Assembly (NCBI GenBank): GCA_903831295.1
Contig: CAIKXA010000020.1
Coordinates: forward strand, 26,287 to 90,286
Source: an uncultured bacterium
Lineage (GTDB): Bacteria; Planctomycetota; Phycisphaerae; Phycisphaerales; SM1A02
Direction of reading: 5' to 3'
DNA: 64,000 bases
A program made the position numbers and the translations under genes. Shown here piece by piece: positions 49,555 to 56,165 of this stretch (position 1 is its first letter; each line of letters starts with the position of its first letter). The notes under the pieces are model-generated. The model was not told the DNA's origin. It did not search any database and saw nothing but the letters and a program-made list of their open reading frames with translations.

Positions 49555-50826
49555 TTAGTGGGGGCTAATCATCTTGGACATGTTGAAGATGGGCATAAGC
49601 ATTGCGCTGGCAATGCCACCGACCACCGCACCCATGACAACAATCAGGATTGGCTCCACCATGCTGGTGGCGCTTTTAAGCGACACGTCAAGATCTTCCT
49701 CGGCAACCTGCGCTGCGCTTTCAAGCACTTCGGGTAGGCGACCAGATTTTTCACCGGCCGCGATAATGGCGGCGACATTGCGTGGAACAAATTTGAACTC
49801 ACGAAAAGTGGGGGCCAACTCGCCGCCGTGGCTTACGCGCTCCTCGACCAATTTCCACATGGCGTTGTAGCAAAGATTGTTTGTGACATCTTTTAAAATG
49901 CGCACCACATCTAGAAGAGGCACGCCCGCGCTAAGCAGGGTGGCCATGGTGCTGGTAAATCGAGACACATAGAGGTGACGAAACATGGGTCCAATCACGG
50001 GGAAGGTTAATTTTGCTTTGTCTATGGCTTGTCGACCCATCGCGCTCTTCATCCAATACCAAACTCCAAATCCAAGCACGGCAAATCCTGGCAGCCAATA
50101 CATCCAATCGAAGCGAATAAAATCCGAAAGCGCCAACAACATTTTGGTTGGAAGCGGAAGTTTGTCGCCCTGCATGGCGAACAGCGGGGCAAAGCGCGGC
50201 ATTACGGTGGTCAGAATTATTGTCACCGCAAGCACCGCAACGATAAGCATGATGGCTGGGTACGCCATTGCGCCCTTCACTTGGCGGCTTGTTTTGCGTT
50301 GTTTTGCAAGGTCTTTAGCCACGCGCGCCATCATTTCATCCAGCATTCCGCTGGCCTCGGCCGCACGAACCAAACTAATCATGAGTGATGGAAATATTTT
50401 TGGCCACTTGGCAAGAGCGGCTGAAAAATCTTCGCCCTCGCATACATCATCTCGAATTGCGCGCGCCAACTCTCCAACAATTGGGCGCGACGCTTGCTCC
50501 GCGAAAGTGTCAAGCGATTCTTTCAGCGTGACTCCGGTGCGAAGCATGACGGCAATTTGCGCGCAAAAAGAAACTGTGTCATCTTTACGGAATGCATTTT
50601 CAAGTCGGTTCTTACGGCTCTTTATACTGATGGTTTCGCCAACGGACGCGCCGGCGTCGCCAAGTTGAACTTCTAAAATAGCCAAGCCTTGTCGGCGAAG
50701 TTCGCGAACGGCATCGGCGTGTGTGAGAGCCTCCAAAACCCCGCGTGACATTTCGCCGCCCGATTTGCGCGCCTTGTAATTCCATTTGTGCAAAATATTT
50801 TCGGGTGGATCAATGACGGCAGGCAT
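49555..50826 (-). CDS. Type II secretion / type IV pilus inner membrane platform protein (GspF/PilC)
   Basis: FCAQIAVMLRTGVTLKESLDTFAEQ, MLDEMMARVAKDLAKQRKTSRQVKGAMAYPAIML, VEPILIVVMGAVVGGIASAMLMPIF. Confidence 0.96.
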   Translation of the reverse strand: MPAVIDPPENILHKWNYKARKSGGEMSRGVLEALTHADAVRELRRQGLAILEVQLGDAGASVGETISIKSRKNRLENAFRKDDTVSFCAQIAVMLRTGVTLKESLDTFAEQASRPIVGELARAIRDDVCEGEDFSAALAKWPKIFPSLMISLVRAAEASGMLDEMMARVAKDLAKQRKTSRQVKGAMAYPAIMLIVAVLAVTIILTTVMPRFAPLFAMQGDKLPLPTKMLLALSDFIRFDWMYWLPGFAVLGFGVWYWMKSAMGRQAIDKAKLTFPVIGPMFRHLYVSRFTSTMATLLSAGVPLLDVVRILKDVTNNLCYNAMWKLVEERVSHGGELAPTFREFKFVPRNVAAIIAAGEKSGRLPEVLESAAQVAEEDLDVSLKSATSMVEPILIVVMGAVVGGIASAMLMPIFNMSKMISPH

Positions 50827-52573
50827 CGTGCACCTCTTCTGGCGTTGTCATGCCGGCCAACACTTTTTGCATACCGTCGTCCCAAAGCGATTCAAATCCC
50901 TGCTCGCGCAAAAGATTGCGGATAAGAGCGGGATCACAAGTGCCGCACAACAAGTCGTTCATTTTTTCATCTGGCACCATGAGCTCATACAAACCAAGTC
51001 GACCTTTCAAACCAGTTTCGCGGCACTTGCGGCAACCCGTGCCCCTCTTGGGCGTGCCTGTTTGATAGGCGTAAATACCCATGGAGGTTTTTTGCGACTC
51101 ATCCAACTCACATGGCGCCGAGCAGTTGGAACAAATGCGGCGCACAAGTCGCTGCGCCAATACGCCCCGCAAACTTGCGGCAATAAGAAAGTTTTCCACG
51201 CCAAGATTGCCCAAGCGAGTGATGGCGCTAGGCGCGTCGTTGGTGTGCAACGTGCTTAGCACAACGTGTCCAGTAAGCGCGGCCTGCACGGCGATTTGCG
51301 CGGTTTCACTATCGCGAATTTCACCAACCATGATCACGTCGGGATCTTGTCGAAGCAAAGATCGCAGCGCGCTGGCGAAAGTGAATCCCGCCTTGGGATT
51401 AATTTGCGCTTGATGCACGCCCTCAATATTTGATTCAACAGGATCCTCAACCGTGCTCACATTGATGCCGGTGCGATCAAAATTATTCAACACGCTGTAA
51501 AGCGTTGTGCTTTTACCAGAACCCGTAGGACCAGTGACCAAGATAATTCCATAAGGTTGTTCAATGACCTTTTGAAACTTATCCAACATGGTGGGGCGGA
51601 AGCCAAGTTTTTCAAGACCCAATTGCGTGCCACTGCTGTCCACAACGCGCATCACTATCTTCTCGCCAAACTTTCCTGGCAGCGTGCTCACGCGCAAATC
51701 AATTGGCCTGCCATTCACGCGCACGCTAATTTCGCCGTCTTGCGGAACGCGGCGCTCGCTGATGTCCATGTGCGCCATGATCTTAATTCGGCTTGAAATG
51801 GCGGCGTTCATGCGCCAAGGTGGCGACATGCGGTTGCTCAGCACGCCGTCAATACGAAAGCGCACGCGCATTTTTCCATCATCAGGTTCAATGTGAATAT
51901 CGCTGGCGCCTTCTTCAACCGCGGAGCAGATTGCAAAGTTGACCAACTTCACCACGGGACCCATGTCATCGCTGTCAGAACCGCCAACCATTTCATCGAT
52001 TTGTTTTTCTTGCAACGTATATGCGCCACCCTGCGTGTCATCCAACATTTCATTCACAATTTCCTGCGCTTTTTCCTGCACGGCGCCTTCGTTTCCCACA
52101 TCGGAAAGCATGGCGTCTAAGCGATCCTCCGGGCTTGCGACAAATCGAACCCGCAATCCACATTCGCGCTGGGCGATTTCACGCACGTGGTCGTTCTGTG
52201 GATCGGCCGTGGCCACAACAAGCGTGTCTTGTTCGCGGCGCAGTGGAACAATGCGATGTTCGCGGCGCATTGCATCGGGTAACAATTTCATAGAGGCGGT
52301 GTCGGCCACCAAATTTGGCTCAGCTACAAATTCAATTTCTAAACTCCGCGCAACAGCCTTCAACATGGTTGCGCTGTCGACCAATTCCATTTGCAACAAC
52401 ACTTCGCCCAGCAATAATCGTTGACTGCTGGCCGATTGACGACGAAGCGCCTCAAGTAGTTGCGCCAAGGTGATCGCGCCATCTTCGATGAGCGCCTGAC
52501 CAACGCGCGGAAGTGACCGCAGTTCGCTGTTCGATGGTGTTGACAAAGGGTGCCCCTGCGGAGATTGGTTCAT
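50810..52573 (-). CDS. Type II secretion / type IV pilus assembly ATPase (GspE/PilB) with MshEN domain
   Basis: VTGPTGSGKSTTLYSVL, HLSTLHTND-type box (VVLSTLHTNDAPSAITRL), VGEIRDSETAQIAVQAALTGH; N-terminal RVGQALIEDGAITLAQLLEALRRQ; ATG at 52573 overlaps upstream stop. Confidence 0.96.
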   Translation of the reverse strand: MNQSPQGHPLSTPSNSELRSLPRVGQALIEDGAITLAQLLEALRRQSASSQRLLLGEVLLQMELVDSATMLKAVARSLEIEFVAEPNLVADTASMKLLPDAMRREHRIVPLRREQDTLVVATADPQNDHVREIAQRECGLRVRFVASPEDRLDAMLSDVGNEGAVQEKAQEIVNEMLDDTQGGAYTLQEKQIDEMVGGSDSDDMGPVVKLVNFAICSAVEEGASDIHIEPDDGKMRVRFRIDGVLSNRMSPPWRMNAAISSRIKIMAHMDISERRVPQDGEISVRVNGRPIDLRVSTLPGKFGEKIVMRVVDSSGTQLGLEKLGFRPTMLDKFQKVIEQPYGIILVTGPTGSGKSTTLYSVLNNFDRTGINVSTVEDPVESNIEGVHQAQINPKAGFTFASALRSLLRQDPDVIMVGEIRDSETAQIAVQAALTGHVVLSTLHTNDAPSAITRLGNLGVENFLIAASLRGVLAQRLVRRICSNCSAPCELDESQKTSMGIYAYQTGTPKRGTGCRKCRETGLKGRLGLYELMVPDEKMNDLLCGTCDPALIRNLLREQGFESLWDDGMQKVLAGMTTPEEVHDACRH

Positions 52574-53181
52574 TTCTGTATTCCACTGGCAGCCGGCTTG
52601 GATTGCGCGCTCGCGCCGAAGCACACTTCAATCACGCGGTTGTCGTAATCCACCGTCACGGAACGATCCGCGATGGCGCGCACACTGGCGAATGTTCCAT
52701 CAGGCAACGCAAGGGCGTCGCCGATGCGAACGGTTTGATCACCAAACACCGCCAACTCGCCGCGAATTACGGCCTTCAGCATGAGACCAGGTAACATTCC
52801 AGGCGTTTTTGTTTGAGGGACAGTCGGCGTGAACGAAGTTTTAGCTTGCTCAACTTCTGGAGCTCCAAAGGCCTTGAATGGATCTCGGGTGGGGGAGCGA
52901 TCAAAAGTCATTTCAATCATTTGTGGTGTTGGCTGTGAATCAACGCCAGCGAACGAAACGGTTGTTGAGCGAATATCGCTTGAAGGAATTTGGTTCGTGG
53001 ACATTTGCGTTGACGAATTTACGGCCACGGTCTGCGGAATTTTTTGCGCGGGGCGCGGCGCGAATCTCAGTCCCAATGCAAATACCGCAACGGACAACAC
53101 GCCAGACAGAATCGCAAACTGTCGTGGCTTCACGCCAAGGCGTGCGCTGAGCAAATTCCATTGTTTTACAAACGCGTTCAT
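52570..53181 (-). CDS. PilP/GspC-like periplasmic alignment protein (tentative)
   Basis: Single N-terminal TM, Thr/Pro-rich linker, small C-terminal domain LKAVIRGELAVFGDQTVRIGDALALPDGTFASVRAIADRSVTVDYDNRVIEV resembling GspC/PilP; position in pilMNOP order. Confidence 0.65.
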   Translation of the reverse strand: MNAFVKQWNLLSARLGVKPRQFAILSGVLSVAVFALGLRFAPRPAQKIPQTVAVNSSTQMSTNQIPSSDIRSTTVSFAGVDSQPTPQMIEMTFDRSPTRDPFKAFGAPEVEQAKTSFTPTVPQTKTPGMLPGLMLKAVIRGELAVFGDQTVRIGDALALPDGTFASVRAIADRSVTVDYDNRVIEVCFGASAQSKPAASGIQK

Positions 53182-53801
53182 TTAGAGCCACCCTTCGCGT
53201 TTTTTGATTGGTTCCCAGCGGTCGCCGCGTCGCTTGCGCGCTCGCTGAAATATTCATCAAACGAGAACGAAGCGTCGATCACTGAAATATCTTGCGGAGC
53301 CCTTGGGTTACATGCAAATTCAATGGACCTCACAGCGACAAGGGATGGCAAACTTTCGGAGGCTTGAACTGTGCCAAAGAGCGATTCAAATGTGCCCGTC
53401 ATTTGCACATCAACCGTGCGGCGCATTGCCTTGGCGCCTTGAACACCAGGGATATCCACACTCGTCAACTTGCCCGACTTGGATTGGTGCTTGTACACGC
53501 CCTTGTTGTCCGCGGTGCGCGCCAAACTATTCAACAACGCGCCCTTGTCTGGAGTGTTTGGAAGCACTCGGCCGCGCCGATTAAGCTCAATTCGTAATCG
53601 CTCCACATCACGTTGCATTTCCACAAGTCCATCTTGACGAGCCGCCGATTCGTAAGCCACGGCGCGCAATGAGGTGGCTTCTTTTTTCCAAGCGCCAGCG
53701 CGCAAATAGTTTGGAACAATAAACAAGCCCAACAAGCCAAGCGCGATGGCTAGTGGAATCCACGCGGTCAGAACATCAACACCGTTTCGTTGATTATTCA
53801 A
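53178..53801 (-). CDS. PilO-like protein
   Basis: N-terminal TM, coiled coil, small C-terminal domain with VDVQMTGTFESLFG (PilO/GspM-like); TTG start overlapping the upstream TGA. Confidence 0.7.
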   Translation of the reverse strand: MNNQRNGVDVLTAWIPLAIALGLLGLFIVPNYLRAGAWKKEATSLRAVAYESAARQDGLVEMQRDVERLRIELNRRGRVLPNTPDKGALLNSLARTADNKGVYKHQSKSGKLTSVDIPGVQGAKAMRRTVDVQMTGTFESLFGTVQASESLPSLVAVRSIEFACNPRAPQDISVIDASFSFDEYFSERASDAATAGNQSKNAKGGSK

Positions 53802-54409
53802 TTCACACCTCCTTGTGCCATGCGCAGGGTCCCTGGTTTGCATACTTGCACGCACAGGGGAACTTGAAATGACACAGTAAATTCTTCCACGCGCTTGCCC
53901 ATGAATTCGCCAGCTTTGCTTTCGGAAATTGTGACGGCTCGAAAAGCCGAAGCACTAGCGAGCTTGTGTTCAAAGTTCGCCAGATCGGTGTTGGTTTGAG
54001 CGACGCCATTCATAACTACAAGCATTTGGCGGGGGGAGTCGGATATTTCAAGGCGCATGCCAATGAGTGAAACGCGCTCAGGCAACATATTGGTCACCGT
54101 GGCCAACACCGATGTCGCGGAAATGGTTGGCAAAAGTCCATCGCTTACGCGCAGGGCGCGCGATAAATTTGATTGTTCATGTGCCAGGGTGTTCATCACC
54201 TCATCCACGCCAGGCGCGTTGGCAACCAACATGGCTCCAACCGTTCGCTCGGAATCGGCAATGCGCGCGCTATTCCAACTATGCGCGCTCACACCAACAC
54301 TAAAGAGCAACAATAAAATTCCCAACAGCGCGATGCGTCGCTTTGAGCGTTGCGCATGCACAACGCGGCGAGTTTCGTTTGGTAGAAAATCTAAAATTGG
54401 AAGAATCAT
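53798..54409 (-). CDS. PilN-like protein
   Basis: MILPILDFLPNETRRVVHAQRSKRRIALLGILLLLFSV, LPERVSLIGMRLEIS ... LVVMNGVAQTNTDLANFEHKL (PilN/GspL-C-like). Confidence 0.75.
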   Translation of the reverse strand: MILPILDFLPNETRRVVHAQRSKRRIALLGILLLLFSVGVSAHSWNSARIADSERTVGAMLVANAPGVDEVMNTLAHEQSNLSRALRVSDGLLPTISATSVLATVTNMLPERVSLIGMRLEISDSPRQMLVVMNGVAQTNTDLANFEHKLASASAFRAVTISESKAGEFMGKRVEEFTVSFQVPLCVQVCKPGTLRMAQGGVN

Positions 54410-55434
54410 GCTGCCCTCTTGGTTGAAGTGGATTGAACATCCAAACTCGCAGCGCCAAGGGCAGCAGCCCATGTGTCACTTTTAAGTTCTTCATTGCCGG
54501 TGCTCCAACCAGTGCTGCCAACAGATGCGCTTTCCATGCCACACACGCCCTTGAGCGTGCTCAGCAATTCAACGTCGGTTGACACTCCGCCAGAAACCAC
54601 AAGGCGCGAGGGCCAACTTGATTCACCACATGCTTGACGCATGCATCGCAATGTTTCCTCAGCCAAAGAACTCCAACGCCAAGCGCCGCCAAAATCAATC
54701 GGATCCAACGCAATTGAATCTGTTTGGCTGTTGTCATTGCTCGCAGTTTCTTGCTCACGCGCTACTGAAGACCAATCACCTTGCATGGCGCGGACAAATT
54801 GAATTTGGCCATCTTTGATCAAAAGCAGAACAGCTTGTTTCGCTTCGACGTGCATGAACGCAACCAAGCCACTGTTCAAGCCTTCATACTTTTGCTCCGC
54901 CGCACGAAGAGCGGCGCATGCCGCGTTTTCAATACTGCAAGGAGAAAGCCCGGCGTTCATGACCGCTTGTGTCGCGTTTCGGATCACTGACACCGGAGCC
55001 GCCAACAACAACAAGCCGCAACGACCAGCCGTAGCGCAAGGAAGCAGCGCATGTTGAATCATGAAGTCGGCCTCACTCACACCAAAATGGTCGATGGCTT
55101 CGAAGCGCGCGCTGGCGGCCAGTTCTTGTTCATTCATGATCGGAAGCTGCGCCGTATCCATGCGGAATAGATTTGACGCAATCGTGACTCGGCAACGGCA
55201 GCCGTTTAAACCAGCGGCGGAAACCCTGGCGCCAAATTCTTGAAGCGCGGCGTCTTCCATCGATCGGTCAAGTAACACCGGGGGAAGTTCAAACGCAACT
55301 CGTCGTGTCCATGTTCCGTCTGCAGCGCGCTCAATCGCGATGCAACGCAATGCATCCGCCGCAAAATCAACCGCAACCGCCATGGTTTGTTTCGTCAGGA
55401 TGTTTTGAAAGTGTCGCATGAACATGCTCCTCAA
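54406..55434 (-). CDS. PilM-like actin-fold ATPase
   Basis: VAVDFAADALRCIAIERAADGTW, EQELAASARFEAIDHFGVSEADFMIQHALL, LVVSGGVSTDVELLSTL. Confidence 0.75.
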   Translation of the reverse strand: MRSMFMRHFQNILTKQTMAVAVDFAADALRCIAIERAADGTWTRRVAFELPPVLLDRSMEDAALQEFGARVSAAGLNGCRCRVTIASNLFRMDTAQLPIMNEQELAASARFEAIDHFGVSEADFMIQHALLPCATAGRCGLLLLAAPVSVIRNATQAVMNAGLSPCSIENAACAALRAAEQKYEGLNSGLVAFMHVEAKQAVLLLIKDGQIQFVRAMQGDWSSVAREQETASNDNSQTDSIALDPIDFGGAWRWSSLAEETLRCMRQACGESSWPSRLVVSGGVSTDVELLSTLKGVCGMESASVGSTGWSTGNEELKSDTWAAALGAASLDVQSTSTKRAA

Positions 55435-55474
55435 TCGTCATAATTCGAACCCGCATTCACTCCGGCGCCAAGAA

Positions 55475-55507
55475 AACAGAGGAACCCCATTTCGGAGTTC
55501 CTCTGTT
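55475..55507. terminator. Strong 11-bp stem-loop between gspG-like and pilM-like genes
   Basis: AACAGAGGAAC-CCCATTTCGGA-GTTCCTCTGTT, perfect 11-bp stem; followed on the minus strand by a short T-rich stretch (TTTTC), on the plus by CTTTTAT. Confidence 0.8.
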
Positions 55508-55524
55508 CTTTTATCTCAACACGA

Positions 55525-55540
55525 TGGTCGTTTCCGACCA
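55525..55540 (-). repeat. Stem-loop with GAAA tetraloop (as minus-strand RNA)
   Basis: TGGTCG-TTTC-CGACCA on the plus strand, i.e. UGGUCG-GAAA-CGACCA in the minus-strand transcript. Confidence 0.65.
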
Positions 55541-55548
55541 CCCTCCAT

Positions 55549-55568
55549 CACTCCATGATCATGGAGTG
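55549..55568. repeat. Perfect 20-bp palindrome spanning the gspG-like stop codon
   Basis: CACTCCATGATCATGGAGTG. Confidence 0.85.
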
Positions 55569-55951
55569 GGGATGAATTTGCTTGTTGCCGCGTTCCAAGT
55601 CCAGCCCTTGGTTGCGTCGATTTGATTCGCAAGATCATCAGTGGTGCAATACTTTGCTGTGACAAGCGGGGCCAAGTCGGTGGATGAATACGCCTGAGCG
55701 TCGGTGAGTGTAATTGTTGCTCCACCTGGCTTGAATTGATTCAAACGCGTCACCATGGTGGTGATTTGTGAGGCGCGAGCGGAAGCCGCGCTGGTGTTTG
55801 CGTCACCCAGTGCACCGACAACGCCAGGAATTACCAAGGCGGCCAACACGCCAAGAATTACAACGACAATCAGAATTTCAATCAGGGTAAATCCACGACG
55901 CATAATTCGTTTCGAGCTGTTCTTAATTGTATTTGTGTTCTCAGTCATCAT
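55559..55951 (-). CDS. GspG-like major pseudopilin
   Basis: RIMRRGFTLIEILIVVVILGVLAALVIPGVVGALGDA class III signal peptide; SD-like AAAGGA upstream of ATG 55951. Confidence 0.93.
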   Translation of the reverse strand: MMTENTNTIKNSSKRIMRRGFTLIEILIVVVILGVLAALVIPGVVGALGDANTSAASARASQITTMVTRLNQFKPGGATITLTDAQAYSSTDLAPLVTAKYCTTDDLANQIDATKGWTWNAATSKFIPTP

Positions 55952-56001
55952 TGTTAGTGTCCTTTCAAAGAGGTGTTTCAATCCAAATTTCTCCGACGCT
56001 T

Positions 56002-56026
56002 GAACATCAAATCCAATTTGATGTTC
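56002..56026. repeat. Perfect 11-bp stem-loop upstream of the gspG-like gene
   Basis: GAACATCAAAT-CCA-ATTTGATGTTC. Confidence 0.85.
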
Positions 56027-56036
56027 TGCAAATCAT

Positions 56037-56056
56037 TCAGAGAATTTTTTCTCTGA
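56037..56056. repeat. Perfect 8-bp stem-loop upstream of the gspG-like gene
   Basis: TCAGAGAA-TTTT-TTCTCTGA. Confidence 0.8.
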
Positions 56057-56165
56057 TTTTGAAACCATCGACCAGTAACTATGGCGACTTCAGTTGGATA
56101 TTTGGAAAAATCACTTATTTAAAACTTCAGGTTGATCTATAGATGATGTATTGGATGGTCGAAGC

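Follow-up and report, generated by a model that had tools for sequence, protein, structure and literature searches.

A hairpin kept behind a probable major pilin gene in Phycisphaerae as a likely partial terminator and mRNA stabiliser

The pilin locus

The window, by which we mean the whole 64-kb stretch of uncultured freshwater planctomycete DNA analysed here, carries a probable major pilin or pseudopilin gene, and pilM-, pilN-, gspE- and gspF-like genes lie 3' of it on the same strand (Table 1). The spacing of these genes suggests that pilin, pilM, pilN, the pilO-like gene, gspE and gspF constitute one operon, and the sequence and position of the pilin point to its being the major one. The ATG at 55419 is the most likely start of the pilM-like gene, while the gene in the pilO position had no family match in profile searches. 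The same genome holds a second secretion/pilus ATPase gene cluster (G000, contig C37:10320-14679), whose 399-aa ATPase could be a PilT-type retraction ATPase.

The prepilin N-terminus (N_methyl) is the only Pfam family found in the pilin protein (PF07963, 31.7 bits); TIGR02532 scores 34.2 bits, profile matches are to geopilin, GspG, MshA and PilA chains, and the structure model has a predicted long N-terminal helix spanning residues 23-73. The cleavage/methylation motif and this helix place the protein within the prepilin family in the wide sense, while comparison of the model with PDB folds was uninformative (best E 0.9). The gspG label proposed in an earlier, sequence-only reading of this DNA could not be upheld for 55559-55951: the protein scores 43 bits against the NCBIfam model TIGR01710, for which the cut-off is 88.85, it has no PF08334 match in the Pfam search, and the secretin of the divergent cluster has its top score with PilQ. 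As such, GspG is too specific a name, and major pilin or pseudopilin of a type IV pilus/type II secretion-like system is the safer one. The sole PF08334 gene of the genome sits on another contig and has no hairpin behind it (L001).

Table 1. Genes and RNA features at the pilin locus (window coordinates)
Feature	Position	Strand	Basis or remark
Inner-membrane platform gene (gspF/pilC type)	49555..50826	-	PF00482
Assembly ATPase gene (gspE/pilB type)	50810..52624	-	PF00437 and MshEN domain
pilO-position gene	53178..53855	-	position only
pilN-like gene	53798..54472	-	PF05137
pilM-like gene, next cistron	54406..55419	-	TIGR01175 PilM weak, below cut-off; adjoins pilin gene in relatives
U-rich tail TTTTCTT	55470..55476	-	sequence; tails compared across loci
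Main 3' hairpin, 16 bp, terminator-like	55473..55509	-	strongest hairpin of window; 91.5% of cells paired in genus
GAAA-loop hairpin, 8 bp	55523..55542	-	between stop codon and main hairpin; z -4.2
Perfect 20-nt palindrome over stop codon (TGA)	55549..55568	.	inverted-repeat scan; z -3.5
Probable major pilin/pseudopilin gene (gspG-like)	55559..55951	-	130 aa; prepilin N-terminus PF07963
Shine-Dalgarno GAAAGGA, pilin gene	55960..55966	-	sequence; kept in leader alignment
Predicted enclosing helix P1, 3' strand	55983..55997	-	RNAalifold
Leader hairpin P3, 11 bp perfect	56002..56026	-	z -4.9; double-sided changes at 4/11 pairs
Leader hairpin P2, 8 bp perfect	56037..56056	-	z -2.8; double-sided changes at 2/8 pairs
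Predicted enclosing helix P1, 5' strand	56067..56084	-	RNAalifold

Inverted repeats at the pilin gene

The five inverted repeats previously noted around the pilin gene were all recovered, in the sequence itself and by an inverted-repeat scan, and two proved to belong to longer helices: the 11-bp hairpin at 55475-55507 forms the perfect core of a helix of 16 bp (55473-55509), and the GAAA stem at 55525-55540 grows to 8 bp (55523-55542) when one G-U pair is included. Their clustering exceeds chance. When perfect inverted repeats with arms of 8 or more and a loop of 11 or less are counted, 4 of the 18 in the 64-kb window fall within one 588-nt stretch at the pilin gene; separate stretches of equal span elsewhere in the window hold at most two, and 20 first-order Markov sequences never placed more than three in such a span. 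Measured against dinucleotide shuffles, every single hairpin is more stable than its shuffled counterparts (z -2.8 to -6.5), and the z-score reaches -5.0 for the two 5' hairpins folded together and -8.1 for the whole 3' block. The main 3' hairpin (z -6.5; segment 55470-55512, -25.4 kcal/mol) outranks every other simple hairpin on either strand of the window. It has the structure of an intrinsic terminator, namely a stable, G+C-containing stem with a U-tract directly after it, the first four T of the tail TTTTCTT doubling as the A-U base of the 16-bp stem.

In an unconstrained alignment of 11 genus-level sequences, 91.5% of the cells of the main 16-bp helix are paired, as are 88.6% of those of the GAAA hairpin, in which 6 of the 8 pairs show double-sided changes; slid controls on the same alignment give 36-48%. 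Judged from this alignment, both hairpins covary across the genus, and RNAalifold predicts them. The palindrome over the stop codon pairs in 62% of cells, is kept in the nearest species only and is absent from the RNAalifold prediction for the 11 sequences, and we reject it as a conserved element beyond those species. The sequence-only reading named stem arms neither conserved nor covarying in close relatives as a ground for refuting it, and on that count it stands: the 3' and 5' stems covary, and a hairpin behind the major pilin is found throughout the class. Equal weight for all five elements is not supported, in view of the stop-codon palindrome. A search of Rfam at gathering scores found no match, c-di-GMP riboswitches included, and relaxed settings yielded chance-level matches only.

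The 3' hairpin in related loci

We compared the window with 47 related loci (L032-L078), which are metagenome-assembled, many of them from freshwater, several labelled Phycisphaerales and some bearing record titles that name other organisms. In the window and in 46 of the 47, the interval from the pilin stop to pilM holds a strong hairpin, the exception (L057) being a contig that ends before the hairpin site. These hairpins have 12-24 pairs, with free energies between about -20 and -40 kcal/mol. Of the 44 loci that span at least 6 kb, 37 have no stronger hairpin on the sense strand, as judged by a simple hairpin scanner that misses bulged stems and under-rates L056 and L063, whose main stems are visible otherwise. 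Many of the loci are closely related, so that the locus counts are not independent, and the diversity of the stems is a better guide. We counted 26 distinct core stems, which fall into several sequence types with no relation to one another, so it is the structure, not the sequence, that is kept. A repetitive palindromic (REP) element is ruled out, the hairpin being present in one copy per genome.

Among 24 outgroup Phycisphaerae loci, other genes, often further pilins, separate the first pilin from pilM. A strong hairpin nonetheless follows the first pilin in all 24 (rank 1 in 15, rank 2-5 in 9), and the second and third pilins are mostly without one. With a threshold of -19 kcal/mol and a distance limit of 110 nt from the stop, a hairpin is present at 42 of 44 pilin ends in the related set and at 24 of 24 in the outgroup, versus 4.0% and 4.5%, respectively, of other ORF ends within the compared loci, as delimited by a crude ORF caller. 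In other planctomycete families similar hairpins follow related pilins in some cases, not all; the phylum-level probe was a hand-written pilin consensus (the L080 N-terminus with an improvised remainder) that served only to reach these loci.

Several loci show local peculiarities. The 3' hairpin AGAGGCGTCGGCAGAAGTGCCGGCGCCTCT is almost identical across species in L038, L040, L042, L043, L047, L048, L050-L052, L059, L060 and L073; the surrounding intergenic sequence has diverged, and the hairpin is single-copy where tested. A second, related terminator-like hairpin lies about 90-150 nt past the pilin stop in L034, L035 and L037, with a run of seven T after it in L035 and a decayed appearance in L034 and L037. 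After position 1336 of L049 (the L013 locus), the final portion of the pilin gene, stop codon included, is tandemly repeated ahead of the hairpin, reflecting either a recent duplication or an assembly error.

U-tails and spacing

The tails vary from U-rich to wholly lacking in U. When U residues are counted over eight positions, 14 of the 47 loci reach at least five, another 21 contain three or four, and the remaining 12 no more than two; two of these poorest (L056, L063) were measured on another hairpin. Most species of the window's genus possess a U-tail, while L067-L070, L072 and L074-L078 have the hairpin with no U-tail, and thus not the structure of a terminator; L071 and L073 are the exceptions within L067-L078. 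Under published rules for stem-loops (PMC8219983), the window's hairpin, with its discontinuous tail of six U, belongs to the mixed stabiliser-and-terminator class, and the tail-less hairpins of the L067-L077 clade belong to the stabiliser class.

A pilM start preceded by a Shine-Dalgarno sequence lies less than 50 nt past the stem in 28 of the 47 loci (a few of these starts are doubtful), and the gap is below 40 nt in at least two dozen relatives. There is no space for a whole promoter in so short an interval, and read-through from the pilin promoter is therefore likely in those lineages. The read-through into pilM that had been proposed for the window thus gains likelihood from many relatives, while the window itself has about 50 nt between U-tail and pilM, in which a promoter is possible. 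A promoter scan returned fewer matches than shuffled sequence, with none between the hairpin and pilM and none before the pilin gene either.

The 5' leader

Covariation of the leader hairpins P2 and P3 was counted in six genomes (Table 1). In the RNAalifold model a further helix, P1, which was absent from the sequence-only reading, appears to enclose both; 88.5% of its cells are paired and 5 of its 13 pairs show double-sided changes, as counted on the six sequences from which it was derived. A covariance model of the leader (R1) finds, among the related loci, only the six genomes used to build it, and in 61 family genomes (evenly drawn, with few congeners) it returns the window itself and one chance-level match; by this search the leader occurs solely at the pilin gene. 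Strong 5' structure as a family-wide rule is rejected, the mean z being -1.1 with 8 of 47 loci below -2.

Other leader hairpins exist among the relatives. In L053-L055, L057, L061, L064-L066 and L071 a different one (GGACAGCGAATGTCGCCGTCC; variants such as GGACATCGAATGTCGCTGTCC) lies about 80 nt upstream of the pilin start and shows apparent compensatory changes, and yet others are present in other clades.

Discussion

To build pili and pseudopili, a cell needs pilin subunits in far greater numbers than assembly proteins, and to our knowledge the means by which a single operon sets this ratio is rarely known beyond a few model bacteria. At the locus described here, we consider it probable that the 3' hairpin is a partial terminator and a 3' stabiliser. 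The pilin gene would be transcribed as the first cistron, and its 3' untranslated RNA would fold into the GAAA hairpin followed by the 16-bp hairpin with its U-rich tail. The latter would allow only part of the RNA polymerase to pass and would hold off 3'-5' exonucleases from transcripts ending at it or trimmed back to it, such that pilin mRNA would be in surplus and the assembly genes would be fed by read-through. The structured 5' leader may in turn protect the 5' end or gate translation. The locus also displays what is expected of a stabilisation operon, a stable stem-loop within an operon (as proposed from spacing) 3' of the abundant cistron. Partial termination combined with 3' protection appears to be the most economical reading of the comparative data, and the hairpin probably lets the cell produce pilin in large excess over the assembly machinery although one operon encodes both. 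That the stem sequence has been replaced repeatedly and the U-tail sometimes lost while the hairpin is kept class-wide points to selection on the hairpin itself.

Other explanations must be weighed against this one. The hairpin could be a complete intrinsic terminator that yields a monocistronic pilin transcript, with pilM onward transcribed from a promoter of its own. The long stem followed by TTTTCTT favours this, the window's U-tail looking good enough for fairly complete termination, as do the free space before pilM (about 50 nt in the window, some 100 nt in L035-L037) and the second terminator-like hairpin in some of the L035-L037 loci. We regard it as unlikely, however, given the stem-to-pilM distance of under 40 nt in so many relatives and the retention of the hairpin in L067-L078 (save L071 and L073) despite the missing U-tail; the lack of a promoter-like match before pilM also argues against it, although the same scan found none before the pilin gene. 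Conversely, the hairpin may not stop polymerase at all. In this case of selective processing and stabilisation, an endonuclease would cut a full-length operon mRNA, and the hairpin would serve only as an obstacle to 3'-5' exonucleases. Its retention in lineages devoid of a U-tail fits such a barrier, and the logic is that of the cip-cel stem-loops, which mostly have no U run (PMC4423207). This we consider somewhat unlikely, since a U-tail is present in most species of the window's genus and a second, U-tailed hairpin in some species.

On the 5' side, the inverted repeats sit where two pilus gene clusters diverge, and they might be DNA operators for a dimeric regulator of divergent promoters as opposed to RNA elements. 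An operator would be expected to hold the sequence of its arms constant, whereas the arms here change jointly as the sequence drifts, those of the enclosing helix likewise, and operators are accordingly a rather poor prospect. Single short palindromes are common and the one over the stop codon may be such a case, but attributing the entire set to chance palindromes or a dispersed repeat element is exceedingly improbable in view of the clustering beyond Markov controls, the single copy per genome, the covariation of the stems and the conservation of the 3' hairpin. A more elaborate proposal would make the leader a cis-regulatory RNA peculiar to the genus, a three-way junction in which TTTGCA is the conserved linker. 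It would gate translation of the pilin in response to a ligand, to temperature or to a protein, in concert with the 3' hairpin found across the class, which would set how much pilin is made relative to assembly machinery; we hold this to be quite doubtful.

The arrangement that we favour, a partial terminator and stabiliser behind the pilin gene, resembles designs known or proposed for papBA, puf, cip-cel and pilA2. The cip-cel operon of Clostridium cellulolyticum is a selective RNA processing and stabilisation operon (PMC4423207, PMC8219983); as here, a stable stem-loop lies just past the cistron needed in excess within the operon of a multi-subunit machine, and many U-tails are weak or absent. 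Unlike cip-cel, the present case concerns another phylum and another machine, and the window's U-tail is fairly good. In the large type IV pilus locus of Clostridium perfringens, the pilA2 transcript is far above those of pilB2, pilC2 and pilMNO, and a terminator has been proposed downstream of the pilin gene (PMC6958937). The terminator proposed there has its counterpart in the terminator-like hairpin of the window, where an excess of pilin transcript is predicted; the loci differ in that several internal promoters are proposed for C. perfringens, and its pilin gene does not stand first, immediately ahead of pilM (PMC6958937). In papBA of E. coli, the major pilin mRNA is shielded by a 5' hairpin and a 3' terminator hairpin (PMC5927463), and to that extent the flanking of a major pilin mRNA by hairpins on both sides is common to the two; papA is, in contrast, a downstream segment processed by RNase E, and its pilin and assembly pathway are unrelated.

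In the puf operon, for which PMC5927463 cites Chen et al. (1988), an intercistronic hairpin after the over-produced cistrons reportedly acts as a decay barrier and sets subunit ratios. Half-lives were reportedly measured for puf, the genes of which are different and not tied to a pilin, while the planctomycete hairpin is a matter of sequence comparison. A literature search, with most subscription journals outside its reach, found no paper describing such a pilin hairpin design in planctomycetes. Three points appear to be new, namely that the design exists in planctomycetes, that it accompanies the major pilin throughout the class while the stem sequence turns over, and that one genus has a structured leader of its own. 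The natural hairpin variants could serve to separate transcription termination from mRNA protection.

Lastly, the interval between the divergent clusters of the window (56085-56165) contains the conserved block TTCGACCATCCAATAC and the conserved palindrome ATCTATAGAT, and some relatives have a palindrome resembling GACTTNAGTC between these clusters; all are candidates for promoter or operator sites.
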